Notes: generated by a model from the letters alone, not told the origin. A stretch of 26,124 bases of DNA from a virus (IMGVR_UViG_3300033986_000319:1-26124), one strand, 5' to 3'; positions 1,914-25,786 are shown, counted from the stretch's first letter. A program made the numbers and translations.

Positions 1914-1941
1914 CAAGCAGCATGATACGGGAGTGGGGCGA

Positions 1942-3084: not shown

Positions 3085-3098
3085 AGGAGGTGGCAATT

Positions 3099-4259: not shown

Positions 4260-4285
4260 GTAGATAAAAGGGGTTGAAAGTCGCT

Positions 4286-9196: not shown

Positions 9197-9216
9197 TACG
9201 GGAGGTGGTACATGAC

Positions 9217-9561
9217 ATGAAAAGCATGACTGTCCAAGAAAGAATCGACGACATAGTAAGGAGAAGCGGTTTCAGTGAGGAGATAGTGCGTCGTGTATTA
9301 AACGCGGAGAGGGAAAGCATATTAGAGTCATTAAAGCATGGTGAGAGGGCAACACTCATAGGGAGATGTACAATAGTACCAGAGTTGAGAAAGTCACTAG
9401 ACATCGGGGGTAAAATAAAGACAGTTATAAAGCTTAAAGCCTCACCAAGTTACTCTCTTGAGTCAGAGCTTGCTGGATTAGAAAGGTTTATCAAAGGAGA
9501 CACGGGCGATGACGATAATGATGAGGGGGTAATGTTAAGGCAATTACCAGGTTTGGTGTAG
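9217..9561 (+). CDS. HU/IHF-like DNA-binding protein
   Basis: A 114-aa protein whose first ~80 residues fit the HU/IHF pattern. An N-terminal helix-turn-helix (TVQERIDDIVRRSGFSEEIV) is followed by VRRVLNAERESILESLKHGE, then a strand pair (RATLIGRCTIVPELR) in the position of HU's 'GE-V-L-GFG-F' stretch. A shortened arm ends in IKLKASPSYSLESEL, similar to HU's C-terminal K-x-S-L end. The long DNA-wrapping beta arm is shorter than in HU. An acidic tail (GDTGDDDNDEG) is added. The ATG at 9217 is used because GGAGGT ends about 10 bases before it; GTG 9205 overlaps that site. It may bend or compact DNA for replication or transfer. Moderately sure. Confidence 0.6.
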   Translation: MKSMTVQERIDDIVRRSGFSEEIVRRVLNAERESILESLKHGERATLIGRCTIVPELRKSLDIGGKIKTVIKLKASPSYSLESELAGLERFIKGDTGDDDNDEGVMLRQLPGLV

Positions 9562-9573
9562 GGGGCATAGTAG

Positions 9574-10206
9574 ATGCTGTATGTTACACATAAGAGGTTC
9601 GCTATATTTTGGGCTTTGCTCGGTGTCATGTATCTGTATTATAAAGGCATGACAGAGATAAATTATTACTTAGCATTAATGCTTGTGGTGCCTTTTTCTA
9701 AAGTTGGAGCAGTGTTTCCTGACCTTGACCATGATTGGGAGAACGTGAAATTCAAAAACATACTTACTTGGGTAGTTAACAAGCTTATACATCTTACTGG
9801 TGGAAGGCACAGGAGTTGGCAGACACACAGCATAGATATAGCTGTTATTTGCACAATATTATCAGTGTACTTACCTGAAAAGCTGTACACTTTGGGTAAG
9901 GTATCACAGGTGAACAGAGAGGTTTTGAGCATTGTAATGATTGGTTTCTCGCTTGGGTGGCTGAGTCACATATTTTCAGATATGCTAACTACAGGTAAAG
10001 TTAAATTACTATGCTTTGCGAACTGGCATGTAGGTTTTGTGCCAAGAAGATTTCTTGGACTCCAGTTCAAGACAGGAGGGCAATGGGAATGGTTTGTTAG
10101 CTCAGTCACGGATAAAATAAACGTGATAATAACAATAGTGGCATTGGCATTCCCAGCTCTCTTAAAGTACAATGTCTTGGGCTTAATCTTAAAGATTAAG
10201 GGGTGA
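9574..10206 (+). CDS. YdjM/DUF457-type membrane-bound metal-dependent hydrolase
   Basis: A 210-aa multi-TM protein with the histidine/aspartate motifs of the YdjM-like (DUF457) family: H6 near the N-terminus, FPDLDH at 48-53, RHRSWQTHS at 78-86, and SHIFSDMLTTGKVKLL at 131-146. These residues are expected to hold metal ions at the membrane face. Family members are called putative inner-membrane hydrolases, and one E. coli member is under LexA control; the true substrate is not settled. Several TM helices surround the motifs (around 8-22, 28-46, 86-100, 117-131, 182-206). The gene follows the HU-like gene by 12 bases and is followed by the second two-TM paralog after 7 bases, so it belongs to the same unit. 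Its link to transfer is unclear; phospholipid or cell-wall precursor processing is possible. Confidence 0.75.
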   Translation: MLYVTHKRFAIFWALLGVMYLYYKGMTEINYYLALMLVVPFSKVGAVFPDLDHDWENVKFKNILTWVVNKLIHLTGGRHRSWQTHSIDIAVICTILSVYLPEKLYTLGKVSQVNREVLSIVMIGFSLGWLSHIFSDMLTTGKVKLLCFANWHVGFVPRRFLGLQFKTGGQWEWFVSSVTDKINVIITIVALAFPALLKYNVLGLILKIKG

Positions 10207-10213
10207 TGTAATC

Positions 10214-11044
10214 GTGAAGAGGTTTCTAACAGCGTACGTAGTAGCTGTATTGCTGACCGTGCTTGTGTTCCCTATTATTGCTTTCGCAGCTGATGGTGAT
10301 AACATATTCGAGAATAGCTACAGTGAAGATAACACTAACGCATACTTATCGGAGATATGTAAGGTAGATAAGTCAAAAGGAGCAATTATCCTCGATAAAA
10401 GAATAGAGGCCATCGTGAAAGAGTCAGATAGGTCCAATGCACCAAAAACCAAGCATTTGACAATTACCAAAGATGGCATTAGCTACACCAAGGATGTAAC
10501 CGATGATGCTTATAGGGAGCTTGTGACACTCGGCAGAGATGTATACGACAGAATGAAGGTTAAACAACGCATAGAGGAAATGGGTAGTAGTGTGAATGTA
10601 GAGGCTGATACCGGTAGAGCTTCTGTGATGCTATCCGGGCTGCAGCCACTCATAAGTTTAATAGTAGGTATTCTAGCATACCTTGTTGTTCTTGGCATGA
10701 CTTTATTTACGGCTATGGATATTTGTTTCATTACAATGCCTGTGTTCAGGAACAGGGTAGAAGAAATGAAGCAGTCGGGTAATGCAGCAATGGTTAAGTA
10801 CGGCAAGGATGGAGAACCAAAATTACGTTGGGTCAGTGATGAGGCACAGTATGCAGTAATTACATGCACAGTAGACTCAGGGAGGAACCCATTAACAGTT
10901 TACCTGCAAAAGAGAATATGGGCACACATCATGGTAGCTATAGTCATTTACATCCTGCTTACCGGTAACATCCAAATGATAGTTAATATAGCAATTAACT
11001 TCGTCAGCGGCATACTTGATATACTCAGCGACCTTGGACGCTAA
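10214..11044 (+). CDS. Exported two-TM protein, paralog 2
   Basis: A 276-aa protein with a signal peptide (cleavage after AFA, residue ~25), a ~115-residue extracytoplasmic domain rich in charged residues, TM1 at ~144-167, a loop, and TM2 at ~237-256, with a further amphipathic or hydrophobic helix to the end. After TM1 comes AMDICFITMPVFRNRVEEM and before TM2 LRWVSDEAQYAV and PLTVYLQKRIW, matching the proteins at 8026 and 11070 in order and spacing. The start is GTG at 10214 after GGGGTGAT. The loop contains the charged KYGKDGEPK. It is probably a pilin-like or channel component in the export apparatus, inferred from position and topology. Confidence 0.85.
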   Translation: MKRFLTAYVVAVLLTVLVFPIIAFAADGDNIFENSYSEDNTNAYLSEICKVDKSKGAIILDKRIEAIVKESDRSNAPKTKHLTITKDGISYTKDVTDDAYRELVTLGRDVYDRMKVKQRIEEMGSSVNVEADTGRASVMLSGLQPLISLIVGILAYLVVLGMTLFTAMDICFITMPVFRNRVEEMKQSGNAAMVKYGKDGEPKLRWVSDEAQYAVITCTVDSGRNPLTVYLQKRIWAHIMVAIVIYILLTGNIQMIVNIAINFVSGILDILSDLGR

Positions 11045-11069: not shown

Positions 11070-11528
11070 ATGAATCCTACAGATATAAAGGAGGGCATTG
11101 CAGAGCAGCTGAATGTTCCTTATGGGATAGACTTTGCAAAACTGGGAGAAATACAATACTTAGTAGATACAGTAGCATCCGTAATCCTTGGTGTGATTGC
11201 CTATTCAATAGTAGCCCTGCTTACAATAGTCACCGCTATAGACATTGCATACATTACTCTGCCAGCGTTCAGGGAAAGAGTACAGGCACTTAAATGGGAT
11301 GGGTCTAAGCATTTTTACTTAAGGGCGGTATCCAGAGATGCCATCCTGGCTGTTGAGGAGGCAGTTCTTTCGGACTCAGGTAAATCAGCAATATCAATTT
11401 ACCTTTGGAGAAGATTGAAGACATATATGATTAGTGTGACAATACTATTTATAATAGTTGGCGGTGGGGTGTTCATAAAGAACTTTATTGTAAATGTGAT
11501 TGTTACCATTTTAAGGGCATTCATGTAG
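11070..11528 (+). CDS. Two-TM protein, paralog 3 (short form)
   Basis: A 152-aa protein that has the same core as the proteins at 8026 and 10214 but lacks a signal peptide and the long N-terminal region. TM1 (residues ~36-57) runs into AIDIAYITLPAFRERVQAL, followed by LRAVSRDAILAV, then ISIYLWRRLK, then TM2 (~118-135) and a hydrophobic end. The ATG at 11070 is chosen to keep this frame; an ATG at 11066 opens a different frame with no homology. The upstream site is GGGGTAGGTG, the same as before the gene at 6030. This may represent the minimal form of the family. Confidence 0.84.
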   Translation: MNPTDIKEGIAEQLNVPYGIDFAKLGEIQYLVDTVASVILGVIAYSIVALLTIVTAIDIAYITLPAFRERVQALKWDGSKHFYLRAVSRDAILAVEEAVLSDSGKSAISIYLWRRLKTYMISVTILFIIVGGGVFIKNFIVNVIVTILRAFM

Positions 11529-11557: not shown

Positions 11558-11581
11558 TGGGACCTGGAGGTGGTGCGCTGT

Positions 11582-13840
11582 ATGCTAAAGAGGATAGCTT
11601 TAATCTTATGTATGATGAGCATGTTATTAATATTAACTGGATGTGAGGCCGCATGGGTTAAAAAGACAAACCTAGAGCAGGCTATGGGTAATCGTGCAGC
11701 TCTAAATCTTGAGCTTATAAATAGGCTTGTTAACAGCGGTTTACTTAGTGAGGACGCTGCAAAAGGTATGCGAGAGTCCTTGGAGAGATTAAAGGAGAAC
11801 CCATCGAGCTTAAATCCAAACCAGAGCATTTCGTGGTATCTTAACACAAGTATAGGGGAATGGAGTACTGAGCCAACACAGGATTCGACTTTTCCAAAAA
11901 GCAATGCACCAACTGGAAATAGTGGTAGGGACATACCGGATTCTGAGATTAAGCCATTAGATATTATTGCAGCTAACCAGTGGGCACAGCTTAACGCATT
12001 AATGACTTGCAAGGTATATGTGCTAAAGGAGCAGCCGGGACAGCCAGTAAATACAGACGAGATAAAAGGCCTACTTGAGGCAGCAAAGACGAAGACCGGA
12101 AGTGAGCAAGAAGAAGCATTCAATGCTTTAGTATCTAAGGGATATTTTAAGGATAGTGGGAAATATTTAACAGACCCTAATGACCCCAAGAATCAGATGG
12201 TGATTGTAACAAAACGTATAACAGAGACTGAGAGTGTTCCTGTGAGAGACTCTAAGAACAATATCATAGGACATGTGACAGTTAAGAGGAATTATGTTAA
12301 TGAGATGGGATATGACCTTGTAGTGTGCGACAAGGATAATATTCCAGTTGCTACATTAAGGTTCAGGGAGATAAACAAGGAGGCAGTAGACAAACTGCTT
12401 GGGGCTGGAGATGCTCCGAAAGATAAGTTTTTACTGGATATTAAAAATAAGAGAGCATTCTTACTTGAGTATCCTGCTTATTATATAAGCAGTGTAAGCC
12501 TTGATAAAGATGGCAACTATAAAACAAGTTTTAGTGAGTCAGACCTACTAGTTAATCTGCTATCCGGTAAGATTAAGGATAAAAGCGGGAAAGAACTCAA
12601 GCAATCAGAGAACATACAAGAGGTTTATGGGAGCAACGGAGCATTTGTTATATATGGAACGGGGGACATAAAGAACGTTGGTTTTGAGCAGGCTACTGTA
12701 AAGGGCGGCACTATAGTTCTTAGGGATTACCTTGAGTTGTCATATATGACTGGCGTGGTGAACGGCGAAGATTTTGTAACATTGGGCAGGCGCGTGCGCG
12801 TAAGTGATTTTGAGGGGAGCAAGCAGACTGTATTTGCTAACTTCATAAATAAAAAAGGCGAAGTTATGAAGGACACACCTAATATACTCATAAGCCATCT
12901 TATGGATATAGATTCTGGCGTAGACGGTAAGGCCATTAAGCTTGGAATAGTTACAGATACAGACGAAAAAGAAGGCGGAGGACAGGCTGGAGGCAACCAG
13001 CAAGGTAGCACTGGACAGAGCCAGGGCAACCAGGAGAATAGCAATAATACCGGAGACGAGAACGATACAGGGCTATTATCAGATGCCAACATAAACAGGG
13101 CTTTACTTAAGCCAATATACAAGGAGTCCATAAAGCCGACCACAAGATTCCCAGGCGAAAAGGTCGGTATAGCAAGTATGTCTAATTTAGGTAACAAGAT
13201 GATTTTTTATGGTATGGCAATCGACATGAGTCCTTTCGAGTCAGGTCTATATAACGGGTGGATAATGAGAGATGACTTAGAAGTAGGGAGCTTAACGTGG
13301 TGGAATAGGTGGTTGAACACCAAAGAGTTGGATTATGGTTATTCCATTGACCCTGAAATACTCAGGCAGTTTTTCATGGGAAATTACAGCTTCGACATTA
13401 TGAAAAGGGAAAACACAATTATATTCAATTTAGGCACAATTGCGAAGATACAACAGGGCTATAACGCGGAAGATAGAGCTAGAAATGTAAACTACTTCAG
13501 AACATTATTTGCTGGACTTGGGATACTTCTAATAGCATACGCGATAGTGCTGATGGCTGCATGGGTGTTCGATGTCAACCTGATAACAGGTCCTAAGCTA
13601 ATGAGTGTATTAACATTTGGGAAGTGGGAGGCAATAAGCAGTTATGAGGAGTTGCCTAATATGGAGTTGGGCGAGAAGCACTACATGACTTTTGAAAAGA
13701 CATTAAATAATTGCATTGTCATAATATGTATAGGTGTATTGTTGTTATTTATAGATGTTGTAGCTATAGTGAAACAGCTCATTGAAATATTCGGCGGCGT
13801 TGGAGAATGGATAGGAAAATCAATATTTAATAAAATGTAG
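11582..13840 (+). CDS. Large lipoprotein with C-terminal TM helices
   Basis: Not recognised. The ATG at 11582 gives a classical lipoprotein signal: MLKRIALILCMMSMLLILTGC with lipobox LTGC and Cys at residue 21; GGAGG lies 11 bases upstream. The mature 731-residue protein is mostly extracytoplasmic: a helical N-terminal region, an alpha/beta middle (RITETESVPVRDSKNNIIGH onward), and a Gly/Gln/Asn-rich linker (~465-500). Then comes a domain rich in Trp, with W positions near 560-590. Near the end are two hydrophobic helices (TLFAGLGILLIAYAIVLMAA at ~645 and CIVIICIGVLLLFIDVVAIV at ~715). Being anchored by a lipid and by TM helices is unusual. Next to the giant exported protein and before VirB4, it may be a core channel or cell-wall-spanning component. 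Confidence 0.85.
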   Translation: MLKRIALILCMMSMLLILTGCEAAWVKKTNLEQAMGNRAALNLELINRLVNSGLLSEDAAKGMRESLERLKENPSSLNPNQSISWYLNTSIGEWSTEPTQDSTFPKSNAPTGNSGRDIPDSEIKPLDIIAANQWAQLNALMTCKVYVLKEQPGQPVNTDEIKGLLEAAKTKTGSEQEEAFNALVSKGYFKDSGKYLTDPNDPKNQMVIVTKRITETESVPVRDSKNNIIGHVTVKRNYVNEMGYDLVVCDKDNIPVATLRFREINKEAVDKLLGAGDAPKDKFLLDIKNKRAFLLEYPAYYISSVSLDKDGNYKTSFSESDLLVNLLSGKIKDKSGKELKQSENIQEVYGSNGAFVIYGTGDIKNVGFEQATVKGGTIVLRDYLELSYMTGVVNGEDFVTLGRRVRVSDFEGSKQTVFANFINKKGEVMKDTPNILISHLMDIDSGVDGKAIKLGIVTDTDEKEGGGQAGGNQQGSTGQSQGNQENSNNTGDENDTGLLSDANINRALLKPIYKESIKPTTRFPGEKVGIASMSNLGNKMIFYGMAIDMSPFESGLYNGWIMRDDLEVGSLTWWNRWLNTKELDYGYSIDPEILRQFFMGNYSFDIMKRENTIIFNLGTIAKIQQGYNAEDRARNVNYFRTLFAGLGILLIAYAIVLMAAWVFDVNLITGPKLMSVLTFGKWEAISSYEELPNMELGEKHYMTFEKTLNNCIVIICIGVLLLFIDVVAIVKQLIEIFGGVGEWIGKSIFNKM

Positions 13841-13855
13841 CCGGAGGTGTTGTTA

Positions 13856-16800
13856 GTGAGGTCAAGAAAATTTACGAGGGTAACTTCAGTGGCAATATTA
13901 GCGGTTTTAATCATTACAACCATATCAACGGCTGTGGCTGCTACGGGTACTCCTAAAACTACCATTATTGGTACCAATCTTGCTTTAGGGTCACCACTAC
14001 TAGACACAACGAATTTTGACCCAAAGACCTGGAATAAATGGGAAATGGTTGCATTCGGGGTATTTTTGAGTAACTTTGCATATCCTTTAGTTGACGACTA
14101 TAAAAGTGCATTTACAGCATGTAACGAAGGTACAAAGGGGTCAGGGTTAAAGGCGTTGCAGTTTGGGTCGGGTAACGACCCATCAACAAACGATATACTC
14201 AAGGAAATGGTGAACTATGCCGTAGCGGTGCAGTCATCGACATTAAAGCCTATAAAGTATAGGTCATTAAAAGATGATAACAGCGGGTTGGATGAATATA
14301 AGGACGCAGTGTTTGAGGATTTGTTTCTCTACAATAAGCTTGGATGGCTTGAGAAGCTCGTAAGTGGGCAGGTAATTGCCAAAGTAGGGGACTGGGGCTT
14401 AACTGGACCTAGCAGGTTTATATACAACGAGTTCGTAGTGGAGATTGATGGTGGGACATACCAGAGAGTCTTCAGCTACGATGACGGTTGGGATTTACAG
14501 ATGCTGGCAGCTTGGCTAACCAGGGTATTTAGCGGTGAGTATAGCGGTGTGGCTAAGAGTAACTTCGAGAAGTTTAGAAAAAGCCCTTTGTTCCTCGACG
14601 CTTTCGGGAATATAGTTGTTCTCCATGGAGGTAGGCCATACATTGTGTTCCCTGCTGCGGCAAGTCAATATATAACACAGACAAAGCAATATAACCTGCT
14701 ACAATCAGTGTTGTTTAACGGCAATTATCTTCCAGCATCTGGAGAGAGCATCATAAACAACGGTGTATCTGAAAACACCAGTAGAGGTGGTGGAGGACCT
14801 TTATCTGGAACAACTGATTTTGGGGTTGGCAAGGTTGTAGTGTCTTTCGATACAGATATACTACTTATGGAGAAAGCCAAGCAAAAGGTAAAAATAAGTG
14901 AGTCAGGGGTTCCAGGTAGCTTGGTAAGCTGGTTAGGAATTTCTGTACCTAGTGTAGCTGTAGAAGAAGCCGAATTAGGTAATGCTGTTGACAATGTGAT
15001 GGCAGCCGACATTAACAGCAGCAGAATACCTTTCAGAGTGGAAATTATACGTGGGGAAAAGATGCCTAACTTACCTGACGCTGTGAAATACTTAGCAAAG
15101 TATGTAGATGACCTTGCTTCAATATACCCAGTTGCAAAAGATGTACCGATTCTTAATTATATTAACACTAACAATGGTAAGTTGCAGCTGTTCTCTAATC
15201 CTGTGGTTACATCTGTTACAACCACTAATCCTTTAGAGAAGCGGTATATTAACAAGATGTACGAGTCCATATACGGCGGCGGGTATGTGCAAGCCGGTTC
15301 GGAGCCTATAGATTATGGCATGTTGAGGGCTGGACTGCAAAGGACAAAAACCTGGATGGGCCTTGGAAGATGGGCCTACGTTGGCAAGTACGATAACATT
15401 GAGGCAATAAAAGAGGATTATTACAGTTGGATGTCAATGCCTGCGTCTCCGATTCTTAAGGCATTCTTAGGGAAGGAAGTCGGAGTAAAACAGGGAGTTA
15501 GCGTTCCGTCTGATGTGGCTGTAGCCGACCTTGGCAGGTATTATAACATACTGAGCAAAGACCAGAATAATGTTGTGGCAGGCAAGGTATTTGACCTGAC
15601 AGAGTCAGAGGTGCAACAGTCGTTTAGAAGAATTATCAAGGGATATCCGATATCACGCGAGATAGAAATAGCGAGCAACATACTAGGAGTCAGGCAGGGG
15701 ACAGAATTTGCTTTGTGGTCGCCTTTTATATATGCGACATACTTAAACTGGTACGGCATAACGTCTGACGGTGGTCATAAGTTCAATACCAAATTATTCA
15801 GCGATAAGTCCGACATACTTAAGTTCGACATGGAGAAGGTGTCAAAGGGGTTATACTTGACCGAAGAAGAAAAGAAGAAGGAAGTTCTTAATTACACTTA
15901 CATGATGTTGCACCCAACAGCAGGTAGGGAATATAGGGCAAGGTTAATAATGGATGCCATATCTGACTGGATTTACAGGACATATCAAAACATAGTTTAC
16001 GGCGGTGTTACGCAGTATTACAGTGGCAGTTACGGTAACATTGGGACGAGAAGTGCCAATGGATTCCTGCACATAAACAGTTACAGCGATAATTTCATGA
16101 CGAAATGGTTTATTAACAAGTATGTAGAATATATAGTCATAATTTTGGGTATATGTGCAGTGATGATAATTCTAATAGGCATTCTAACACAGAAGAAACT
16201 CATATGGTTTTTGGCATCGCTATTTATAGTGGTGAACGTTTGCATTTTGATGCCATCAATAGGAGATGTGACTCCTTACGTGGCAGATAGTGCTGTGCAG
16301 AACATGTTTAAGGACAAGATGTCATATTGGGCAATGTCTGAAGCCATAAGGAACAACGAAATAGAGCAGAACGCTAACAATAAAGCATCTGCTGCGGAGG
16401 AACAGGCGCTTGGAAGCGATGTTGACGCCAAGAAGGTAGCCAATCTAGTACGTATGTTGAACATATCTTATTTGGATAGGGCATTAATGCTAAAGCTGGA
16501 CATATCAAAGAAGATAAACGAGACACAACTAGAGAACTTTGACGAAATTCAGAAGTTGCAATCAGCGCGGTGGCTGCTGCCAATACTCATGAGGCAGTTT
16601 ACAGCCAACGACAGGTCGCCAAATTACATTTACGTGCCTCTTGGAGACGAATATATTAACATGTCAAACCTATACTGTCTATATGTGCCAAGCGATATAG
16701 GTAGTAAAAGAGCCGTAGACGCTGCAAATGATGCTGGTGCAGCTGCAGCAACGAATGAGGAAGTAAAGAGCAGAATATTGAGCGATAGCCAGAAAACAGC

Positions 16801-18745
16801 ATTATTCGCCGATTATACAAAGACATCATTTGATTCAGACCTAACCAACGGGCGCTACAATACAATCGTTATATCTTCTAAAGACGAAGATTATCGGAAG
16901 CCTCCAGGGTGGGAGAGCGTATCAAGGATAAAAGACGACAGCCAGCTGGTTCATACGAGCTCTTACTTATTAGCAGACTTGCCTATACCTTCAAGGAAAA
17001 TTACAACAAGCAAGGGCAAGACTGTAGACGGCGATTGGGAACTGTACTTAAAGACATATAAAGATAAAGTAGCCGCAGATTTTGCAAGAAAGGCGAATGA
17101 GCTAGAGGAGATAGCCGGTAGTTATAACTCTTTTGACTCTTCCACAGTTCAAGAGGATTATGGATATTTGTGGACAACTCAAAATCCATTGCATTACTTC
17201 TATCAGGTTATTAAAGACACTATGCGTCCTGACGCTAACGTTGCTCTAATAGCTGGCGAACTTCAAGGAGAGTACAGAACGAGCAGTTTAACAGGAAAAG
17301 AAGAAAGAGTATCATTCATGCATTATAAGGATACCGGGAAAATTCGTGATTTCCTTGATATGGAGGAGCTATTTACAAATGTAATTCCTTATCTATACCA
17401 AGTGCAGATACTTGCGGGAGGATTCGATGGTACATCAGGAGCTTTGGGAGATGCCAAGATAGAAAGGTATACACTCTACAAGAACAATTATAAGTCGTGG
17501 ATGTTCAGGAGCAATTGGGCAACGAAGCTAATGGAGTCTCCTTTACTCACAAGCGGTACCACTGTTCGGGATGGCAAGGGCAATAAGTATTATGTGGAAA
17601 ATCCCATGCTTCCTTCATGCTACCCGAAAGAAAGGCCTATGGTATTTAGTGAAGCTCAGATGTATGCTATGGGGCTTTCAGAAGGGGACCTGAGCATACC
17701 AGAAGTAAAGATTATCAAGGTAGGTAAGGCAGTTGAGCGTAGGTGGACATTGCTGTTAAACTATGTTAACGTTCCAGGAGTCACACCAGACATACTTTAT
17801 AAACAGATGGCACTGGACGCATTACTAGAATTTAACAGGGAATTCTCTTCAGGCAACTTCCTAAATCCTGCATGGAACCTGTATCCAATGAGCATAGACT
17901 TAAGGGCACTTTCATTTGACTCAGTTATGAAGATGCTCATGTTGAATAATACGAAAGACGTAAGGTATATTTATGGAGATACCATGAAGAATATCATAGA
18001 AAGCAGCGATATATTCAGTGCACTACTTCTACTTCTGTCAGCTTTCCTATGCGCATACGTCATACCGTTCGTAAGGGACGTAGCACTTGGTTTGTTGTTC
18101 TACCTTGGGTTCTGGGCTGTAATAACCAATATACTGTCAGCTGGCAAGACAAAGCTAAAGATAACCGCAGCATTTGCAATAAACAACATAGCTTACTTAA
18201 TTATGACACTTGCATATTATCAGGTGTTTGCCGTTTTGATTAATCTGACGTACAGCGATAACATACTGAACGTTAAGGATGTTACCATAAATACAGGTAG
18301 CCCTGTGTGGGTGTTCATTATCATAATTATAGCCAGCGGATTGTACATTTGGGGCACCTGGAGATTAATCAGGATGACCATATTGAATTACAGAGATCTT
18401 GGGTTTGAAGTCTATGCAACATGGGCAGGAGTGCTGGCTACGAAGATACAGGATAAGATAGGCGAAATTGGAAGTACATTCAGAGAGGCATTTGGCGGAT
18501 TCCAAAGTGGCAGTGAAGAGGCTGGCACTGGCAGTACAGTTGGCGAAGGGGCAAGCGTAATCGGTAAAGACGTTAAGGTAAAGGTCGAAGTGGATGGAGA
18601 CACTACCAGGAGTAAGGATAAGCAAGAAGTTAGGAATGAAGTACTTTACAGAGATTCAGGGTACATTGATGATGTCGGCGATGATGATGTAGAGATTCAT
18701 ATAGATATAGACAAGGAAATCGAGAAAGGTAAGCGTATAGAATAG
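13856..18745 (+). CDS. Giant exported multi-TM protein, 1629 aa (VirB6-like by layout)
   Basis: The GTG at 13856 is chosen since GGAGG (13843-13847) lies 8 bases before it; GTG 13847 overlaps that site. A signal peptide or anchor (VAILAVLIITTISTAVA) opens the protein. A ~730-residue region follows, including WEMVAFGVFLSNFAYPLVDD near residue 55. Two TM helices lie at ~757-805 (VEYIVIILGICAVMIILIGI; LIWFLASLFIVVNVCIL). A ~575-residue loop comes next, then four or five TM helices between ~1385 and ~1500, and a C-terminal cytoplasmic-looking tail that is Gly-rich then acidic (DDVGDDDVEIHIDIDKE). Large multi-TM proteins with big soluble parts are typical of Gram-positive VirB6/TcpH-like channel proteins, but I see no clear sequence signature. 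Topology is not settled, because the positive-inside rule gives conflicting answers for the 575-residue loop. Confidence 0.88.
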   Translation: MRSRKFTRVTSVAILAVLIITTISTAVAATGTPKTTIIGTNLALGSPLLDTTNFDPKTWNKWEMVAFGVFLSNFAYPLVDDYKSAFTACNEGTKGSGLKALQFGSGNDPSTNDILKEMVNYAVAVQSSTLKPIKYRSLKDDNSGLDEYKDAVFEDLFLYNKLGWLEKLVSGQVIAKVGDWGLTGPSRFIYNEFVVEIDGGTYQRVFSYDDGWDLQMLAAWLTRVFSGEYSGVAKSNFEKFRKSPLFLDAFGNIVVLHGGRPYIVFPAAASQYITQTKQYNLLQSVLFNGNYLPASGESIINNGVSENTSRGGGGPLSGTTDFGVGKVVVSFDTDILLMEKAKQKVKISESGVPGSLVSWLGISVPSVAVEEAELGNAVDNVMAADINSSRIPFRVEIIRGEKMPNLPDAVKYLAKYVDDLASIYPVAKDVPILNYINTNNGKLQLFSNPVVTSVTTTNPLEKRYINKMYESIYGGGYVQAGSEPIDYGMLRAGLQRTKTWMGLGRWAYVGKYDNIEAIKEDYYSWMSMPASPILKAFLGKEVGVKQGVSVPSDVAVADLGRYYNILSKDQNNVVAGKVFDLTESEVQQSFRRIIKGYPISREIEIASNILGVRQGTEFALWSPFIYATYLNWYGITSDGGHKFNTKLFSDKSDILKFDMEKVSKGLYLTEEEKKKEVLNYTYMMLHPTAGREYRARLIMDAISDWIYRTYQNIVYGGVTQYYSGSYGNIGTRSANGFLHINSYSDNFMTKWFINKYVEYIVIILGICAVMIILIGILTQKKLIWFLASLFIVVNVCILMPSIGDVTPYVADSAVQNMFKDKMSYWAMSEAIRNNEIEQNANNKASAAEEQALGSDVDAKKVANLVRMLNISYLDRALMLKLDISKKINETQLENFDEIQKLQSARWLLPILMRQFTANDRSPNYIYVPLGDEYINMSNLYCLYVPSDIGSKRAVDAANDAGAAAATNEEVKSRILSDSQKTALFADYTKTSFDSDLTNGRYNTIVISSKDEDYRKPPGWESVSRIKDDSQLVHTSSYLLADLPIPSRKITTSKGKTVDGDWELYLKTYKDKVAADFARKANELEEIAGSYNSFDSSTVQEDYGYLWTTQNPLHYFYQVIKDTMRPDANVALIAGELQGEYRTSSLTGKEERVSFMHYKDTGKIRDFLDMEELFTNVIPYLYQVQILAGGFDGTSGALGDAKIERYTLYKNNYKSWMFRSNWATKLMESPLLTSGTTVRDGKGNKYYVENPMLPSCYPKERPMVFSEAQMYAMGLSEGDLSIPEVKIIKVGKAVERRWTLLLNYVNVPGVTPDILYKQMALDALLEFNREFSSGNFLNPAWNLYPMSIDLRALSFDSVMKMLMLNNTKDVRYIYGDTMKNIIESSDIFSALLLLLSAFLCAYVIPFVRDVALGLLFYLGFWAVITNILSAGKTKLKITAAFAINNIAYLIMTLAYYQVFAVLINLTYSDNILNVKDVTINTGSPVWVFIIIIIASGLYIWGTWRLIRMTILNYRDLGFEVYATWAGVLATKIQDKIGEIGSTFREAFGGFQSGSEEAGTGSTVGEGASVIGKDVKVKVEVDGDTTRSKDKQEVRNEVLYRDSGYIDDVGDDDVEIHIDIDKEIEKGKRIE

Positions 18746-18761
18746 GCAAGGGGGAATTAAA

Positions 18762-20156
18762 GTGGCTAGCAGCGATAGATTGGTGAAGAACAGAAGCGGT
18801 CAGATTTTTATACCGATGAATGTTGATGGTGGTGTCATCGAGGAGAGCTTCATGAGCTCGGGAAAAGTAGCACTAATTATAGTGCTACTTTTCTCCACCT
18901 TCATTGCATGGGTTTGGGTAAACGGCTGGAATACTGGCTGGGTAATGAGGTTTGTAGGTCATATTTTCATACTTTATATTGACCAATTAGTAGTAAGGAA
19001 GTTGATTTTAGAAGAAAATTATTTATACAAGATGCACAAGAAAACGCGAGCTCACCGCATTACTACACCTGCTGTATTTTGGGATATAGTCAACATCAAA
19101 GATACAGAGGACGGGGCAGTATTAATATACTCCGATATGAAGATAGGTGTAATACTTAAGGTAGAGAGAGGTACAATTACAGGTAAGTCGGAGGACTTTA
19201 GAGAAAAGCACTATGACGCTCTGTCGGATTTTTACAAGGAACTAAATTTCAGGAAGTACAAGTTTGTTCAGATGAACATCATGGAGCAGGCTGGCAAAGA
19301 CCCAAGACTGCAGAAGCTAGACAATTTGGTGCTCAAGGAGAAAAACGAGAATTTATCTTCGTTGCTTGAGGCGCAGGTCAGCTTTATAAAAAAGATAACA
19401 CGTTCAACTCTGTCGGAGAACGACTATTTCCTGATTTATACAGATAACGTAAGTAGGTCAGACCAAATTATACAAGATGTTATTGATTCTGTTATGATAC
19501 TTATGGACGGCGGGTTCTTAGGGTTCAAGCTGTTATCACTGTCAGAGATAATAGACCTCGTGCATGAAATCTATGGTGTACGTTACTTCGATTATGCGGA
19601 AGCATCATTAAATGTATTCAAGGACGCAAAAGCAGCAGTAGACAATCCTTTTATAGTGAAGGAGATTAAGTTTACTGACGGTACGTCCATAAAGGTGGGG
19701 CAACAGGAGAATAATAGGATTAAAGCATTATCACATTACATCAAGACGAATGACATAGATTATGCAACCTTTAATGCCTTGGAAGCACTTAAGGGTAAGA
19801 TAAGATACTTAAGACCGGCAGGCTCTAAAGATTATATTACGTCGGCGGAGGAAGTTAAGGCTTTCGAGATAGTGGACAAGACTGAAGAAGTTGTTGTAGA
19901 CCTTGATAACTATGCATTTGGTGTTTTAGGCACACCAGCTAACACTTCTAATAGCGTTAACAGTGCTAATAGGCGTGAGGATAATGAGAATGAGGGGTTG
20001 AAAAGGAAAAAATTGGAAGTAAAAATAAGGCTACCGTTGGGCGGGCGTAAGGGTAAAAAAGATAACACCAAAAAAGACGATTTTCAACATAAAAAAGTAG
20101 GTTTTAGTGTTTCGAATGATAATGGTCAGAACGAAGATGAATTTATCGACTTCTGA
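18762..20156 (+). CDS. Two-TM protein with VirB4-N-terminal-like cytoplasmic domain
   Basis: 464 aa, GTG start at 18762 after AAGGGGG. Residues ~36-54 (VALIIVLLFSTFIAWVWVN) and ~61-79 form two TM helices near the N-terminus, like small PrgI/TcpE-type proteins. Residues ~97-285 then resemble the N-terminal half of VirB4/TraC ATPases: VNIKDTEDGAVLIYSDMKIG, a long helix pair, NDYFLIYTDN and LSEIIDLVHEIYG. There is no P-loop, so it is not itself an ATPase. The C-terminal ~70 residues are a basic stretch (KKDNTKKDDFQHKK) ending in acidic DEFIDF. It may be a membrane platform that docks the VirB4-like ATPase encoded at 23551. The similarity is judged by eye and is not certain. Confidence 0.8.
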   Translation: MASSDRLVKNRSGQIFIPMNVDGGVIEESFMSSGKVALIIVLLFSTFIAWVWVNGWNTGWVMRFVGHIFILYIDQLVVRKLILEENYLYKMHKKTRAHRITTPAVFWDIVNIKDTEDGAVLIYSDMKIGVILKVERGTITGKSEDFREKHYDALSDFYKELNFRKYKFVQMNIMEQAGKDPRLQKLDNLVLKEKNENLSSLLEAQVSFIKKITRSTLSENDYFLIYTDNVSRSDQIIQDVIDSVMILMDGGFLGFKLLSLSEIIDLVHEIYGVRYFDYAEASLNVFKDAKAAVDNPFIVKEIKFTDGTSIKVGQQENNRIKALSHYIKTNDIDYATFNALEALKGKIRYLRPAGSKDYITSAEEVKAFEIVDKTEEVVVDLDNYAFGVLGTPANTSNSVNSANRREDNENEGLKRKKLEVKIRLPLGGRKGKKDNTKKDDFQHKKVGFSVSNDNGQNEDEFIDF

Positions 20157-20186
20157 TGAATAATTGGATATTTAGGAGGTATGGGC

Positions 20187-22133
20187 ATGCGTGTTTTAAT
20201 ATGCGGAGGCGTTAAAACTATAAATATTGTACGTGCACTACAGCCAAAGTTCAAAGCCGGAACAGTAGATTTCGTTGTTATAAATAGCATAACCGGAACG
20301 GAAATAAAGAACTGGTTTAGCAGGGGAGAGCAGTTTGATAGAGCAGTTATAATTGAGCAGTCTTGGACGGATGACGGGAACATACAAGATGAATACGAAA
20401 TGCGTAAAGCAATAAACTGGTTTGCCAGTGCATTCAGGCAGCGGGCTGGTGCTGGTGCTACCTGTGTGTTTATAACAACAAATGAAGCTATGGCCACGAT
20501 GGTTGCTGAGGAGACCATTGAAATAAGTAGGAGTTGCAAGGTGCTTATAAAAGAACCACCATATACAGTATCCTTCTTCAATTTGGTGGTGACCTATGAC
20601 CTGAACAGCATGCCTGATATCTATGTATTTGACTTTACCAAGGCATCAAGGAACGAGCAGAGTGAGGCAGATATCGTTATTAAGCAACCTTTGAATAAAG
20701 CCAATGAGGTGGAGGTTAGCATAGACGAGCCCAGCACTAGTTCGAGCAAGCAGGAAGTGGATGACTTAGATAATGACTTCTTCGGTAATTTGCATGAGGA
20801 TTTCGGGGACAACGCTGAATTTGGTATTGAGAGCAAAGACGAAATTGAAAATCAACCAGATTTAGGCGAAGAATACACCGAAGGCAATTTTGAGAAATCA
20901 TTTGACGAAATTGATGATTACACTGAAGATGAAACTGATAATACAGAGACAATTAATATAGAGGACATTGAGGAAGATAGCAGTCCTGCTGATTTACCCG
21001 ATAGCTCCGAAGCGGAGGAAGTGGAGAAGACAGTAGAGGAAGTGGATGCAGCTGAGGAAGAAGATAAAGCAGATGAGGGAGATATTGAGGTACTTGAGGG
21101 CTTTGCAGAACCTGTAGAGGAGCCCAGCAAGCCCAAAGAGCCTAAGGAACAAGAAGGTAATAGCAAGGAGCCTGTAGAACCACATGCCTTTTTTGATGAA
21201 GAAGTATACAAGAGGCCTACAACAAAGGCGAGGAACGAGAGGGTAGAGATAAAGCCTACAGGTGCTCCTCAGGCGGACGCACTAATTACATTGCTTAATA
21301 CATTTAAGAATCGTGGAAGTTCATTAGTGGTTACAGGCGGACCCGCAAGCGGCAAAAGCATACTAGCCTTCAACATAGCCAATGTTGTAGCAAGGCTAGG
21401 ATATCAATGTTTACTTGTAGACTTTGATTTATTTGGAAGGACTCAGGCTTATTTGAGCAAGGAGGCTTATGAGGCGGTACATTCAGGAGATACCGCGAAG
21501 ACCAATTTATTGGCGGCGATAAACAGCTCACATGGCAAGATAGGCAGGTATGTGGATATAATTTCGCCTGGTTTTCATATATTGACGAACGGTTTAGCAG
21601 GTGATGTAATTAAGCCTGAGCAGTTTAGCGATAAGCAGAAGGTAATCAGGTTAGACAATACAGTAAAAAGTAACTACAATTTCATAGTGTACGATATGCC
21701 ATTTGGGTTTGTGGATGGACTATGCTCAGATATAGTGCTTAACGCTGATAATGTAGTTATTACAATAGACGCAAGCACTTGGGGGGTTATGCAGGCACTA
21801 CTTTTGATGGGTAATGTGGACAATATGGAGGTGCAGGAGGCACTGTTCTGCAGGTCTCAAGTGTGCTTTACCAAAGTGCGAGAGTCTATTAATAAGGTTT
21901 TAGGCAGGCAGGTAAGGGATGTATACGATATATTGAGGCTCATGGATACTATTATTGTAGATTTGCTAGGTATTGAGCCAGAGTTTTTATTCAGCGATAT
22001 CAGGGTATGCGGAGTTGTTCCGTATAATGAACAGTTAGAAAATCTGTGGTTTGACAGGAAGCAATATTCGGATACAAGTGAAGGATATGATTTTACGCTG
22101 AGACTACTCGAGAGTATATTGTTAAAGCATTGA
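20187..22133 (+). CDS. MinD/CpaE(TadZ)-like P-loop ATPase with long acidic linker
   Basis: The ATG at 20187 is used because AGGAGG ends 7-8 bases before it; the ATG at 20181 touches that site. The 648-aa protein has three parts. Residues 1-~150 form an alpha/beta domain (RVLICGGVKTINIVRALQ; VIIEQSW; TCVFITTNEA) like the receiver-type N-terminus of CpaE/TadZ. Residues ~155-345 form an acidic, Pro/Ser-rich linker with DNDFFGN and HAFFDEE. The C-terminal ATPase has Walker A GGPASGKS (384-391), CLLVDFDLFG near 410, and FIVYDMPFG then NADNVVITIDAS. The deviant-Walker signature lysine of ParA/MinD is absent. CpaE/TadZ proteins place secretion machines at the membrane; a similar positioning role for the transfer apparatus is inferred. 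Confidence 0.82.
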   Translation: MRVLICGGVKTINIVRALQPKFKAGTVDFVVINSITGTEIKNWFSRGEQFDRAVIIEQSWTDDGNIQDEYEMRKAINWFASAFRQRAGAGATCVFITTNEAMATMVAEETIEISRSCKVLIKEPPYTVSFFNLVVTYDLNSMPDIYVFDFTKASRNEQSEADIVIKQPLNKANEVEVSIDEPSTSSSKQEVDDLDNDFFGNLHEDFGDNAEFGIESKDEIENQPDLGEEYTEGNFEKSFDEIDDYTEDETDNTETINIEDIEEDSSPADLPDSSEAEEVEKTVEEVDAAEEEDKADEGDIEVLEGFAEPVEEPSKPKEPKEQEGNSKEPVEPHAFFDEEVYKRPTTKARNERVEIKPTGAPQADALITLLNTFKNRGSSLVVTGGPASGKSILAFNIANVVARLGYQCLLVDFDLFGRTQAYLSKEAYEAVHSGDTAKTNLLAAINSSHGKIGRYVDIISPGFHILTNGLAGDVIKPEQFSDKQKVIRLDNTVKSNYNFIVYDMPFGFVDGLCSDIVLNADNVVITIDASTWGVMQALLLMGNVDNMEVQEALFCRSQVCFTKVRESINKVLGRQVRDVYDILRLMDTIIVDLLGIEPEFLFSDIRVCGVVPYNEQLENLWFDRKQYSDTSEGYDFTLRLLESILLKH

Positions 22134-22155
22134 GGTATGAGGGAGATGCATTGAA

Positions 22156-23544
22156 ATGACTAAATACGCTGTAGGAAAAAATTTAATAGGTTTTGAGAGT
22201 CTTGCAGTAGACAATGAGAAAGTGGGGACTATACGAGACAGCCAGGTTGTCATCATTCTAAGCGGTGATGACGACAACCTTTACACTGAGTACTACAAGG
22301 CAATTAAAGAATTGATTATTAATAACAACAAAGTAGTGCTAGTGTATGTAAGCGGGAGAAGCATTATCTGGAAGCCTCTAGCCATGCTTATGGCATCATA
22401 CAGGCGGTACGATGTTTACGAGGTTGACGACTACAATGAGATAACCGAGAGCTACGTAATGCAGATGATGTCCAGGACCGCATCGGAAGAGGAGGTAAGG
22501 ACTTTTATATCATCTGAGGTAATCGCTTATGGTGAGCTGGACTCACTGCTGCTGGACGTTAGCTCTGCTATACAGAACGGGGATATAGAGTCGGCAGTTA
22601 ATTTGCTGGCATCCAAGGCGGATATTGTTGAGGCTTCAATAAAAGCGGTAAACTACCTTAGAAAGACCTTGGATACATTGAGCAGCAAGGAGGACGACAG
22701 CAAGCTTAATGAGTTGCAAGAGCTGGTGAATAAACTCAAGAAGGAGCTTGATGAGGCAAGGAATAAAATTGCTGAGCTTAGCGATACCAATAAAACGCTT
22801 GCGGAAGAAAATAAAGGGCTCAAGCAAGAATTGGTCAATACCAATAATAGATTGCGCGAGATTGAGGAGCAGGTGACCAGCGGAGCTCCCGTTATCAGGT
22901 CTTATGCTGAAGTGCAGACATCGCTGGTGAAGTGCAAGGCGAAGTCTATAATCTACTTCAAGGAGATAACATACGTAAGGTATATAAACAGCTTCGTGAC
23001 AAAACTTTTCGAAGTCATATCGAAAATACACAAGTTACGTGTAAAACTTGTTATATACGACAATAGAAATGGGTTCGTGCAGATTTACAAGCCATTAACG
23101 GTTGTTGGTTCGGCGGAGTATGTAGCTAGCCGTGACCTAATTGTAAAAAAGACTGACAAGATTGTAGTTGTAGAGGCCAATACTGCTATCATAGAGGACA
23201 TTATAAAAGCAGACTATGATGTTGTTATAGTGTATGACCGTATGAGGCAGCCAAACGACGTTGTTGCAGGCAACAACGTTTACAAGTATTGGGTCATAAA
23301 CTCTACCACTGAATACAACACAATATCGCAGACGTACAAGATAGATAAGCATCATGTAATAACAAGGCCTGGCATTTTCCCTGAAAGCATACCGTTGCTG
23401 GAAATCAGTGGTTATAGTGAGATGACTGAGTCAGCCCGTATTTCATCATATATAAGGCTTGAGCATCCTGTGATGAAGAAGTCATTATTCGAGTTAATAT
23501 TTGAGAGGACAAATGTTAACTCAATAGCGAAGCTTAGGAGGTAG
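22156..23544 (+). CDS. Coiled-coil protein with possible inactive MinD-like domain
   Basis: 462 aa, ATG at 22156 with GAGGGAGA 9 bases upstream. Residues ~1-100 look alpha/beta (SQVVIILSGDDDNLYTEYYK; KVVLVYVSGRSI). A coiled coil spans ~165-245 (NELQELVNKLKKELDEARNK; LAEENKGLKQELVNTNNRL). The C-terminal part (~260-400) repeats the strand-helix order of the preceding ATPase: KSIIYFKEITYVRYINSF where the P-loop would be, VKLVIYDNRNG in place of LLVDFDLFG, and YDVVIVYDRMRQPNDVV in place of FIVYDMPFGFVD. The GKS nucleotide-binding motif is lost. It could therefore be a catalytically dead partner of the ATPase encoded just upstream. No TM helix or signal is seen. The domain reading is by eye. Confidence 0.8.
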   Translation: MTKYAVGKNLIGFESLAVDNEKVGTIRDSQVVIILSGDDDNLYTEYYKAIKELIINNNKVVLVYVSGRSIIWKPLAMLMASYRRYDVYEVDDYNEITESYVMQMMSRTASEEEVRTFISSEVIAYGELDSLLLDVSSAIQNGDIESAVNLLASKADIVEASIKAVNYLRKTLDTLSSKEDDSKLNELQELVNKLKKELDEARNKIAELSDTNKTLAEENKGLKQELVNTNNRLREIEEQVTSGAPVIRSYAEVQTSLVKCKAKSIIYFKEITYVRYINSFVTKLFEVISKIHKLRVKLVIYDNRNGFVQIYKPLTVVGSAEYVASRDLIVKKTDKIVVVEANTAIIEDIIKADYDVVIVYDRMRQPNDVVAGNNVYKYWVINSTTEYNTISQTYKIDKHHVITRPGIFPESIPLLEISGYSEMTESARISSYIRLEHPVMKKSLFELIFERTNVNSIAKLRR

Positions 23545-23550
23545 TGGAAA

Positions 23551-25626
23551 GTGGCGTTGTTAAAATTGTTCAACATTAAAAAGTTCAAGCAGGACTTTGC
23601 CGAGAAAGTGGAGTTGTACGACACTATATTAGCCAATCTAATAGCCGGAAACTCAGTTATAGAACCAGACATAAACCTGGATAACAGCAGGATATCGATA
23701 GGGTTTAGCAGCATAGCATCTGAGAGCCAGGTCTCCAGATACTTTCTAATTAGAAATTTACCTGATTATTTGCCTGCTAATTCTTTAGATAACCTCAGGG
23801 GTACATGTATACTGCCTGGGGTGAAATTTAATTTTTACCTGTACGCTTCACCTCATATGATACGCTGGGACTCACCAGAAATGAAGAATAGGCTCGATAT
23901 ATGGAAGCAGTACACTGCATCACAGCCAGATAACATTAATGTGTTTGAGTACAGGCAGAAAAGGAGTGCCAGCTTGGCCAAGCAGAGGATTATATATTCA
24001 ACAAAATATTTGAATGAGGCAGAACTTGATTTCAAGAGGTCATTATTTAAGGTGGCTATACTTATAGAAATCACAAGCAGGCGGGATGAGCAATCACTCG
24101 TAAATTTAAGCAGGTCAATCAGTACATTCAAGAATATATGCAGGAATATGGATATAAAGCTTCTGGAAATCAAGATGAACGTTCTTGATTGGCTTGCTTA
24201 TTTTGGCATATTCAGCCTTAAGAACATAAGGGAGGTAGCAAACAAGGTAAGCAGAAGGACTTTGACGGACGATATACTGGCAAGCTTCAACCCTTATAAG
24301 CAAGGAAGGGTTGGGGATGATGGCGTATGCCTTGGCATAGATGTGCTGTCAAAAGTCCCTGTCCTAAAGAAGTTCAAGGCGGACCCTGACGCACCTGAAA
24401 ACTGGCTTATCTGTGCCGAAACAGGCGGAGGTAAATCATTGTTTATCAAGGTGCTATTGACTTACTTGCTTGCAGATGGGTTTGTAGTTACCGTAATGGA
24501 CTACGAGGGCGACGAATACTTCAATCTAGCCAACTACATAAAGGCCGGCAATCCTGATGATGTAAAAATCATATCAATGGGTAAGGGTTCAACTGAGTAT
24601 TTTGACCCAATGGAAATAGCCGACCTTACCGGTGAGGACGATATAGACAACGAGTTAAAGGAAAATGCTATAACCTATACGCTGGCAATTTTTAGAGTAA
24701 TAGTAGGTGGGCTTGAAGGCAACATAAACCAGTGGGAAGAACGGGTCATATCCACAGCAATAAAAAGGGTTTACGAGAAAGCAGGGGTAACCGAGGACAA
24801 GAGCACCTGGCATCGCTCTAAAGGACTTAGAATAAAAATGGTATACGATGAGATAAAGTGCATGGCAGAAACAAAAGAGTTCGTTGACGAGGATGTGGAT
24901 AACGTAAAGCATAAAGCAGCAGTCCGCATAGCAGACTGCGCATCGGTTTATTTTGAGGAAGGGGAGGCTAAGTCAGGAACATTCAAGAACCCGATTTCGG
25001 TCAACGAGCTTTACAAGGCAAGGTTTATAGTATTCTCCTTCGGTATGCGTGGTGCCACATCCTCGCAGATTGACCCTGTAATCCTTGCACTTAAGCAGTT
25101 GTCCGTTGCAAACGTAGCAATACAGATATCAAACTACTGCAAGTATGTTAGGAAATGCTTCAATGTCAAGGTATGGGAAGAGTTCCAGCGTTGGGGTGAA
25201 GTCAGAGGTTCTTCAGAAATCATCCTAAACGCTATGACAGGCGGTCGTAAACGTGGGGACGTGAACTTTATAATCACCAATAAGCTCGGTGCTATACTTG
25301 ATGACGACAATCCAATAGCGGCTGGGCTACGTGAGAATATAACTTCTAAGGCTATAGGGAAAATTAACGACAAGACAATAAGGCATAAGTTCTGCGAAGT
25401 ATTTAGTGTACCTGAGGTTGAAGGTGTACTAGACATGATAGCTAAAGCAAGCATGGCAGACGAGACAAATAATAAGGTAATAGCAAGCAGTTCAGGCAAC
25501 AGGTACAAGTACGCTTTCTGCTTAATGTTGGACAATGGCAAGAAAGCAGTGGTTAAAGTTATGCTACCTCAGGTACTGAGGCAGTCTCAGCTATTTAAGA
25601 CAGGAGTAAATGTAGAAAGCAGGTGA
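23551..25626 (+). CDS. VirB4/TraC-type secretion ATPase with altered motifs
   Basis: 691 aa, GTG at 23551 after AGGAGG, 6 bases from the previous stop. VirB4-type ATPases power assembly and transport in type IV secretion. Residues ~45-250 form the VirB4-like N-terminal region (YFLIRNLPDYLPANSLDNL, and a long helix region with ITSRRDEQSLVNL). The ATPase domain begins at ~260: Walker A is AETGGGKS (289-296), with Ala for the usual first Gly. The VirB4-typical block VMDYEGDEYFNLANYI lies near 315. The Walker B position reads VKVWEEFQRW (~540), where an Asp-Glu pair is expected, and GGRKRGDVNFIITNKLGAIL (~563) matches the RK..G..iiaTQ block with Asn for Gln. The family call is secure from motif order; the catalytic changes are noted separately. 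Confidence 0.88.
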   Translation: MALLKLFNIKKFKQDFAEKVELYDTILANLIAGNSVIEPDINLDNSRISIGFSSIASESQVSRYFLIRNLPDYLPANSLDNLRGTCILPGVKFNFYLYASPHMIRWDSPEMKNRLDIWKQYTASQPDNINVFEYRQKRSASLAKQRIIYSTKYLNEAELDFKRSLFKVAILIEITSRRDEQSLVNLSRSISTFKNICRNMDIKLLEIKMNVLDWLAYFGIFSLKNIREVANKVSRRTLTDDILASFNPYKQGRVGDDGVCLGIDVLSKVPVLKKFKADPDAPENWLICAETGGGKSLFIKVLLTYLLADGFVVTVMDYEGDEYFNLANYIKAGNPDDVKIISMGKGSTEYFDPMEIADLTGEDDIDNELKENAITYTLAIFRVIVGGLEGNINQWEERVISTAIKRVYEKAGVTEDKSTWHRSKGLRIKMVYDEIKCMAETKEFVDEDVDNVKHKAAVRIADCASVYFEEGEAKSGTFKNPISVNELYKARFIVFSFGMRGATSSQIDPVILALKQLSVANVAIQISNYCKYVRKCFNVKVWEEFQRWGEVRGSSEIILNAMTGGRKRGDVNFIITNKLGAILDDDNPIAAGLRENITSKAIGKINDKTIRHKFCEVFSVPEVEGVLDMIAKASMADETNNKVIASSSGNRYKYAFCLMLDNGKKAVVKVMLPQVLRQSQLFKTGVNVESR

Positions 25627-25633
25627 TGTCTGT

Positions 25634-25786
25634 ATGTACCTTTTGCTATTTTTGGCTATTGTGTTCGCAGTATATATAAATACATTTAAGAATGAGTTCG
25701 ACAAAGAGGACATGGGTAAAGCAACATTATTTATAATCTTAAGCGGGTTGACCATAATGTTTGTTGGCATAATATCTAATTTGTAG
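25634..25786 (+). CDS. Small two-TM protein, 50 aa
   Basis: A short gene between the VirB4-like ATPase and the last gene. The ATG at 25634 follows AGGTGAT, which overlaps the VirB4-like stop, so translation is probably coupled. It encodes two hydrophobic helices (LLLFLAIVFAVYI at 3-15 and ATLFIILSGLTIMFVGII at 30-47) joined by a charged turn (KNEFDKEDMGK). No family recognised. The size and place suggest a small membrane subunit, but an unexpressed ORF cannot be excluded. Confidence 0.6.
   Translation: MYLLLFLAIVFAVYINTFKNEFDKEDMGKATLFIILSGLTIMFVGIISNL

Follow-up and report, generated by a model that had tools for sequence, protein, structure and literature searches.

A rare type IV secretion-type locus of large plasmid-like elements that may be an unrecognized branch of Gram-positive conjugation systems

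Organization of the locus

The 26,124-base stretch of DNA analyzed here in its entirety (hereafter the window), an IMG/VR "virus" record, carries a locus of the type IV secretion system (T4SS) type that is real, rare and conserved, and apparently undescribed. We regard it as probable that a large mobile plasmid, or a plasmid-like element, uses these genes for export, as a T4SS through which it hands its own DNA on to other cells; the host most likely belongs to the Clostridia, and the window is probably a fragment of a larger element. Judged from sequence, conjugative DNA export is the likeliest function, and the locus may be an unrecognized branch of the Gram-positive conjugation systems. The proposal of the initial annotation, a divergent Gram-positive T4SS, is sustained in part: a VirB4 profile match, structural matches to the VirB4 N-terminal domain and a coupling-type ATPase speak for it, while no relaxase was found in the records searched. 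No description of this gene set was found in the open-access literature, although absence there is no proof of novelty.

Six export genes, all on the + strand, lie within positions 11570-25626 with intergenic gaps of 6-24 bases, in a window whose coding density is 96% throughout; most of their starts have G-rich ribosome-binding-like stretches just upstream. They encode a lipoprotein with two C-terminal transmembrane segments (TMs) (11570-13840; lipobox LTGC, TMs 646-664 and 716-734), a giant exported membrane protein (13847-18745; signal peptide, TMs ~763-803 and 1389-1497), a two-TM, VirB3-like protein with a cytosolic domain resembling the VirB4 N-terminal domain (18762-20156), a CpaE/TadZ-like protein of the ParA/MinD superfamily (20181-22133; Pfam AAA_31, 1.2e-6), a coiled-coil protein with flanking alpha/beta-like regions and homologues in the relatives (22156-23544), and a VirB4-type ATPase (23551-25626). 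All six were found closely packed, as had been claimed. The boundaries proposed for the locus, 11582-25626, are too narrow: synteny with the closest relative, the IMG/VR contig G001, extends from window position 1933 onward, and two further + strand genes follow VirB4. The first encodes a conserved membrane protein of 50 aa (25634-25786) with counterparts of 53-54 aa at the same place in G001 and in the metagenome-assembled genome (MAG) L007; the second, starting at ~25790 and cut by the contig end at 26122, encodes the N-terminus of an FtsK/SpoIIIE-type motor, the putative coupling protein, which is similar to the N-termini of two FtsK proteins, the 781-aa one of L002 (1.1e-6) and that of L007 (1.5e-5). 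Chance open reading frames are ruled out, since homologues stand in the same order in other records.

The genes upstream of the lipoprotein are on the + strand as well. Synteny with G001 opens with a 383-aa protein of no assigned function (1933-3084; BLASTP 1e-90 to G001 12946-14091 and 1e-15 to the contig G002), followed by an ArdC-N/zincin-like metallopeptidase protein with a G001 homologue (3063-4151; Pfam ArdcN, 1.2e-8) and by a single-TM protein with a small C-terminal domain (4274-4909; TM 43-61), which has homologues in G001 and G002, the latter adjoining a TadA-type ATPase gene. This protein is possibly a cell-wall-side subunit, a role proposed by inference. Next come a soluble protein of 272 aa kept in G001 (5036-5854; BLASTP 1.6e-42) and a clamp-loader-type AAA+ ATPase (6495-7895; Pfam DNA_pol3_delta2, 1.5e-30); homologues of the latter stand upstream of the same export module in G001, G003 and plasmid US1. 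Three related small membrane proteins precede the lipoprotein: an exported protein with a signal peptide and two TMs (8026-8898), similar to the second of the trio (1e-4) and with a G001 homologue, to which we would assign a VirB2-like role; an exported multi-TM protein (10214-11044), also with a G001 homologue and similar to the third (1.6e-16); and a two-TM protein (11070-11528), placed by its similarity within the trio and by comparison with G001. Between the first two are proteins of 101 aa (8891-9196) and 118 aa (9205-9561), both conserved in G001, and a YdjM-family membrane protein, a metal-dependent hydrolase (9574-10206; Pfam YdjM, 1.5e-11), possibly an accessory subunit. Similar or same-named genes are seen on the carriers G001, G003, DKU, US1 and the Paenibacillus bovis (P. 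bovis) plasmid, usually close to the module.

Conservation of the module and nature of its carriers

Relatives of the locus were searched for in plasmids, viral contigs and cellular genomes. A tblastn search of plasmids returned 13 records, among which nine Bacillus plasmids, 136-216 kb in size, had 93-98% of VirB4 matched; in IMG/VR the relatives were G001 (88 kb, VirB4 59% identical), G002 (284 kb, 35%) and G003 (140 kb, 28%). A scan of 84,980 species genomes yielded L007, a Lachnospiraceae MAG from water-deer cecum (VirB4 60%), and Bacillus glycinifermentans (L008, the same as G005). When 397 genomes of the family of the L007 MAG and 80 of the Bacillus family were sampled, the system was present only in those same two genomes, and so it is rare and accessory-element-like.

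The order two-TM protein, ParA/CpaE-like protein, coiled coil and VirB4, then the FtsK/SpoIIIE-type motor, is common to eight records (the window, G001, L007, G002, G003, US1, DKU and B. glycinifermentans). Co-occurrence of the gene set in other genomes, suggested as a check on the locus, was thus observed in seven further records, including named Bacillus plasmids; the carriers are large plasmids of Bacillus from soil and food as well as Clostridia of the gut. By plain BLAST the two-TM proteins, the VirB4s and the motors are connected from group to group, and the same is true, in most groups, of the ParA-like and coiled-coil proteins. Family profiles recover all module proteins in the eight records, most of which also belong to the profile-building set, the independent matches being those to the ParA-like and coiled-coil proteins of B. 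glycinifermentans. Peptidoglycan hydrolases adjoin the module in US1 (C40, glucosaminidase), G003 (NlpC/P60, SLT), and DKU and the P. bovis plasmid (M23); in the window, Pfam searches recognized no such VirB1-like hydrolase.

Among the carriers, two complete circular plasmids (144 and 216 kb) bear genes for replication and partition (ParB), and capsid or other structural genes are missing from their annotation. G001 also carries genes for a DnaB-like helicase and ParB, and US1 encodes its own DNA polymerase, ligase, topoisomerase IV and ribonucleotide reductase. The carriers have the look of large, self-replicating plasmids whose replication genes are phage-like, a trait that would explain the viral label given by IMG/VR.

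Several features of the carriers were observed in passing. G001 (L010-L014) bears genes for SmpB, translation initiation factor IF-3, a Clp-type ATPase, an MscS-type channel and topoisomerase II, unusual for a plasmid of such size, and directly after its FtsK gene (L012 1477-4480) it has two adjacent, related endonuclease-like proteins, 34% identical. The B. velezensis plasmid US1 (L030 13358-15851) has a CBASS-like pair consisting of a SAVED-domain protein and a DncV-like nucleotidyltransferase. In G003, near position 130582 (L039), tandem iteron-like repeats are arranged around AACCTACATGTACTGACAGTA and are possibly a replication origin.

VirB4 and the relation to known conjugation systems

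The presence of a VirB4-like ATPase was borne out by both curated profiles and a solved structure, and this identity is real: the protein matches NCBIfam VirB4_plasma (3.3e-16), CD1110 (8e-13) and DUF87 (1.4e-8), and in the PDB the solved VirB4 domain 4ag5 (4e-12). Its best curated matches are the NCBIfam VirB4 families of mycoplasma ICEs and of CD1110, although the scores are far below their cut-offs, reaching 10-15% of them (58 of 590 and 47 of 325 bits). In a tree of 11 VirB4 rows the eight records form one group (100/99), and P. bovis, zrk4 and pLS20 lie outside it; these outgroups are few and long-branched, with pLS20 as the sole MPF_FA/MPF_FATA reference. The pLS20 VirB4, itself on a long branch, was not matched by the family VirB4 profile. 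By its sequences, the locus is distinct from the pLS20 system, the one compared.

Gram-positive T4SSs are split into MPF_FA and MPF_FATA, with coupling proteins of the VirD4 or TcpA type, and their conserved subunits are VirB1, VirB3, VirB4, VirB6 and VirB8, according to a 2025 review of T4SSs (PMC12857230). The locus has in common with conjugative systems of these classes (pLS20, pCW3 tcp) a VirB4, a two-TM protein that may be VirB3-like, a large multi-TM protein and an ATPase of the FtsK/VirD4 superfamily, and several of its relatives share their wall hydrolases as well. In contrast to those systems, its motor is of the FtsK/EssC type and not VirD4, CpaE-like and coiled-coil components are conserved, the protein at the VirB6 position measures 1350-2060 aa in this locus family, and no relaxase was found. 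The pLS20 VirB4 and its 974-aa TM protein are not recognizably close to the proteins of the locus. As for VirB8 (NTF2-like), no Pfam match was obtained in the window, where the one-TM protein at 4274-4909 is a tentative candidate.

A relaxase and a coupling protein had been suggested as genes to look for in the flanking sequence. The latter was located, as an FtsK/SpoIIIE-type, coupling-type ATPase stands directly downstream of VirB4. Relaxases were searched for with five Pfam models: PF03432, PF03389 and PF02486 were absent from the window, G001, G002, G003, US1 and DKU while control genomes were positive, and PF01076 and PF13814 gave no match in a search where no positive control responded. 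The two complete plasmids were among the records without a relaxase match, which leaves the conjugation reading without its usual signature, and the Bacillus plasmids are typed as non-mobilizable by MOB-suite in PLSDB.

These observations have to be weighed against the explanation that fares best after our own, to which we give a lesser, though real, chance: that the locus is an ordinary, sequence-divergent member of MPF_FA or MPF_FATA whose relaxase was missed by profile searches. The nearest curated VirB4 families, those of mycoplasma ICEs and CD1110, are consistent with it, as are the fragmentary nature of the window and the TcpA-type, FtsK-like coupling proteins described for a subset of MPF_FA in PMC12857230. 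Against it stand the position of the pLS20 VirB4, the two complete plasmids without a relaxase match and the ParA-like subunit, which is not among the conserved subunits given in the consulted passages of the same source.

A second explanation, which we consider improbable, is that the system is the one already described as a novel T4SS at the tip locus of pXO16 from Bacillus thuringiensis israelensis, for which two ATPases and one hydrolase, and no relaxase or oriT, were identified (PMC9673590). The likeness in description covers a large Bacillus plasmid, a T4SS unlike the known ones, two ATPases, a single cell-wall hydrolase, no relaxase or oriT, and few database relatives (PMC9673590). However, tblastn with VirB4 and FtsK matched no B. 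thuringiensis plasmid in a collection that may lack pXO16. Among the systems described so far, the tip locus is the likeliest candidate for a relative of the present one.

The FtsK-type motor and its cargo

An FtsK/SpoIIIE-type motor is encoded downstream of VirB4 in all relatives, the window retaining its N-terminus only. In the PDB, the motor domain matches EssC/EccC with E values of 1e-26 to 1e-29, the DNA translocase FtsK with 1.5e-25 and a "DNA translocase coupling protein" (6o1x) with 6e-9; it also matches the NCBIfam EssC/EccC families. The EssC/EccC matches would agree with a T4SS/T7SS-like hybrid that exports protein and not DNA. We hold this to be more improbable still, as the DNA translocase FtsK is matched almost equally well, the motor homologue of the P. 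bovis plasmid matches FtsK_SpoIIIE (7e-44) and has a winged-helix-like C-terminal region, the carriers are plasmids, VirB4 accompanies the motor, and effector genes were not recognized.

Transfer of DNA by an FtsK-like motor has a precedent in the TraB protein of Streptomyces, which moves double-stranded DNA (PMC12857230) and resembles the present case in being an FtsK-type motor with no relaxase found. Unlike TraB, the motor is here accompanied by VirB4 and channel proteins, and no clustered 8-bp repeats are seen near its gene: in a search for clustered octamers of the TraB-clt kind none were found there, and the clusters present elsewhere were iteron-like (those of G003 mentioned above) or of low complexity. 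Double-stranded, relaxase-free transfer would be a possible and attractive extension of the DNA-export reading.

That the window comes from a tailed phage whose membrane proteins are unusual, as could be suggested by its IMG/VR classification as viral, shared by three relatives, and by the phage-like replication genes of G001 (clamp loader, topoisomerase II, DnaB-like), is very unlikely indeed, given that Terminase_6N (PF03237) is absent from six records with positive controls, that no structural PHROG appears among the matches listed for G001, and that two relatives are the complete circular plasmids described above. A phage structural locus is ruled out where tested, by these terminase and PHROG searches, and the T4SS reading is accordingly not refuted by structural genes nearby.

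Membrane partners of VirB4

We built an AlphaFold2 model of the two-TM protein from six homologues; its overall pLDDT was 51, rising to ~60-85 for the TM hairpin and for much of an alpha/beta domain. In a Foldseek search with this model, the first 12 PDB rows were all chains of the R388 T4SS, with TrwK/VirB4 on top (best E 5e-3), and this uniform identity adds weight to a VirB4 N-terminal reading. VIA aligned residues 105-276 of the model with residues 19-205 of R388 VirB4 at Z 8.3, a value of the order (~8) that models of this kind also give with unrelated proteins; rows ranking lower than VirB4 (RNA polymerase, receptor helices) were attributed to widespread arrangements of helices. The model suggests that a VirB3-like hairpin and a VirB4 N-terminal domain are combined in a single polypeptide, in line with the VirB4-N-like protein claimed initially, the best structural matches of this weak model being VirB4 N-terminal domains. 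The two-TM protein and VirB4 share no profile similarity, and the idea that they are duplicates of one another was discarded.

The exported multi-TM giant was confirmed by its signal peptide and TMs, at a length of 1632 aa. A giant bearing a signal peptide stands ahead of the module in six out of eight records (the window, G001, L007, where its 5' end is open, G002, G003 and US1), and its topology is alike in all six, with two TMs in the middle of the protein and about three to five near the C-terminus (4-5 in the window protein); in DKU-type plasmids no giant was found at the place preceding the module. Sequence similarity unites the giants of the window, G001, L007 and G002 on one side and those of G003 and US1 (37%) on the other, and only weak matches, located within the C-terminal TM region or immediately ahead of it, connect the two groups, which are probably homologous. 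The giant matched no Pfam family, found nothing when used alone against viral contigs, and showed no support for homology to the TM protein pLS20_p028; an AlphaFold model of 921 of its residues had a pLDDT of 34 and was discarded. Its topology, together with weak profile matches, makes it a candidate VirB6-type channel subunit.

The lipoprotein gene is also real, with its lipobox and C-terminal TMs, and the product measures 756 aa by the earliest start. Its role as the mark of a class did not hold, since a homologue was found only in G001 (27%) and the protein therefore does not define the class.

The CpaE-like protein and Tad pili

The CpaE-like protein is present at the locus in eight out of eight records. 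Its Walker-A lysine is kept in the window protein (GGPASGKS) and missing in all six aligned homologues, a loss that points to a structural or positioning role. TadZ-type proteins likewise have no Walker-A lysine. When the profile was compared with structures, BY-kinase and MinD/ParA entries scored best, and 3fkq, which we take to be TadZ, scored lower (3e-6). In the P. bovis plasmid a single protein of 683 aa, encoded directly before VirB4, combines two N-terminal TMs with a ParA-like domain at its other end (hhalign 1.8e-5 for this domain and 0.009 for the N-terminus against the two-TM family); this fusion is indirect evidence that the two-TM and ParA-like proteins may act in one complex.

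The CpaE/TadZ-like ATPase that had been noted within a T4SS is, then, a constant part of the locus, but as a mostly degenerate ParA-like component rather than a stray element of a Tad system. It resembles the CpaE/TadZ proteins of Tad pili in having an extra N-terminal domain beside the ParA-like domain and a Walker A that is degenerate in most homologues, and differs from them in lying between T4SS genes without TadA/B/C beside it. We reject it as a proof that the window has a Tad system, since no TadA is present there: a TadA (T2SSE) search gave no match in the window or G001, both of which may be fragments.

TadA-type ATPases are encoded on three complete plasmids and on G002. On US1, a complete plasmid, a Tad-type operon (SAF, ParA, TadA and followers) lies away from the export module, DKU and G002 have their TadA-type ATPases elsewhere on the record, and in the P. 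bovis plasmid TadA and followers come ~3 kb after the FtsK gene. Beside its T4SS genes, that plasmid (L051 1327-4708 and 20618-22714) also has a pair of CpaE-like proteins and what appears to be a fusion of ParA and TadA. The Mycoplasmatota plasmid zrk4 (L052) encodes a VirB4 (1e-25) and a TrbL-family protein (1e-19); SAF, CpaE-like, CpaF and T2SF genes immediately follow its T4SS genes. The mixture of T4SS and Tad-like elements had been proposed as something that could define a separate class; such a mixture has a precedent, for pLS20, a known Gram-positive conjugative plasmid, carries tadA too. It is a reasonable guess that a Tad pilus serves cell contact across the class.

Proposed mechanism and implications

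Taking the VirB4, ParA-like and FtsK-type identities, the gene order and its conservation as established, we infer the channel roles, cargo, positioning and transfer as follows. VirB4, the two-TM VirB3/VirB4N-like protein and the giant, in a VirB6-like role, would form a membrane channel, into which the FtsK/SpoIIIE-type motor (gene from ~25790), standing in for a VirD4 coupling protein, would feed DNA. The CpaE-like protein, seemingly a scaffold and not an ATPase in most relatives, and the coiled coil may fix the place of the machine at the membrane, and the wall-spanning part of the machine would be made up of the lipoprotein and the trio of small exported membrane proteins.

More tentatively, and as a conjecture that we would not favor at present, the locus could stand for a separate class of Bacillota conjugation, in which an FtsK-type pump sends double-stranded DNA without a relaxase through a VirB3/VirB4/giant-VirB6 channel, with a pseudo-ParA (CpaE-like) scaffold and a Tad pilus from the same plasmid for contact. 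Double-stranded conjugation in Gram-positive bacteria is an open question raised for TcpA of pCW3 in PMC12857230, and the combination of VirB4 and an FtsK-type motor with no relaxase makes it directly testable in Bacillus subtilis. If the plasmid-transfer reading of the locus is true, plasmids typed as "non-mobilizable" (US1, DKU_NT_04, P. bovis BD3526) would carry a full transfer machine, and a path of gene exchange among Bacillota of food, soil and gut would escape relaxase-based typing.
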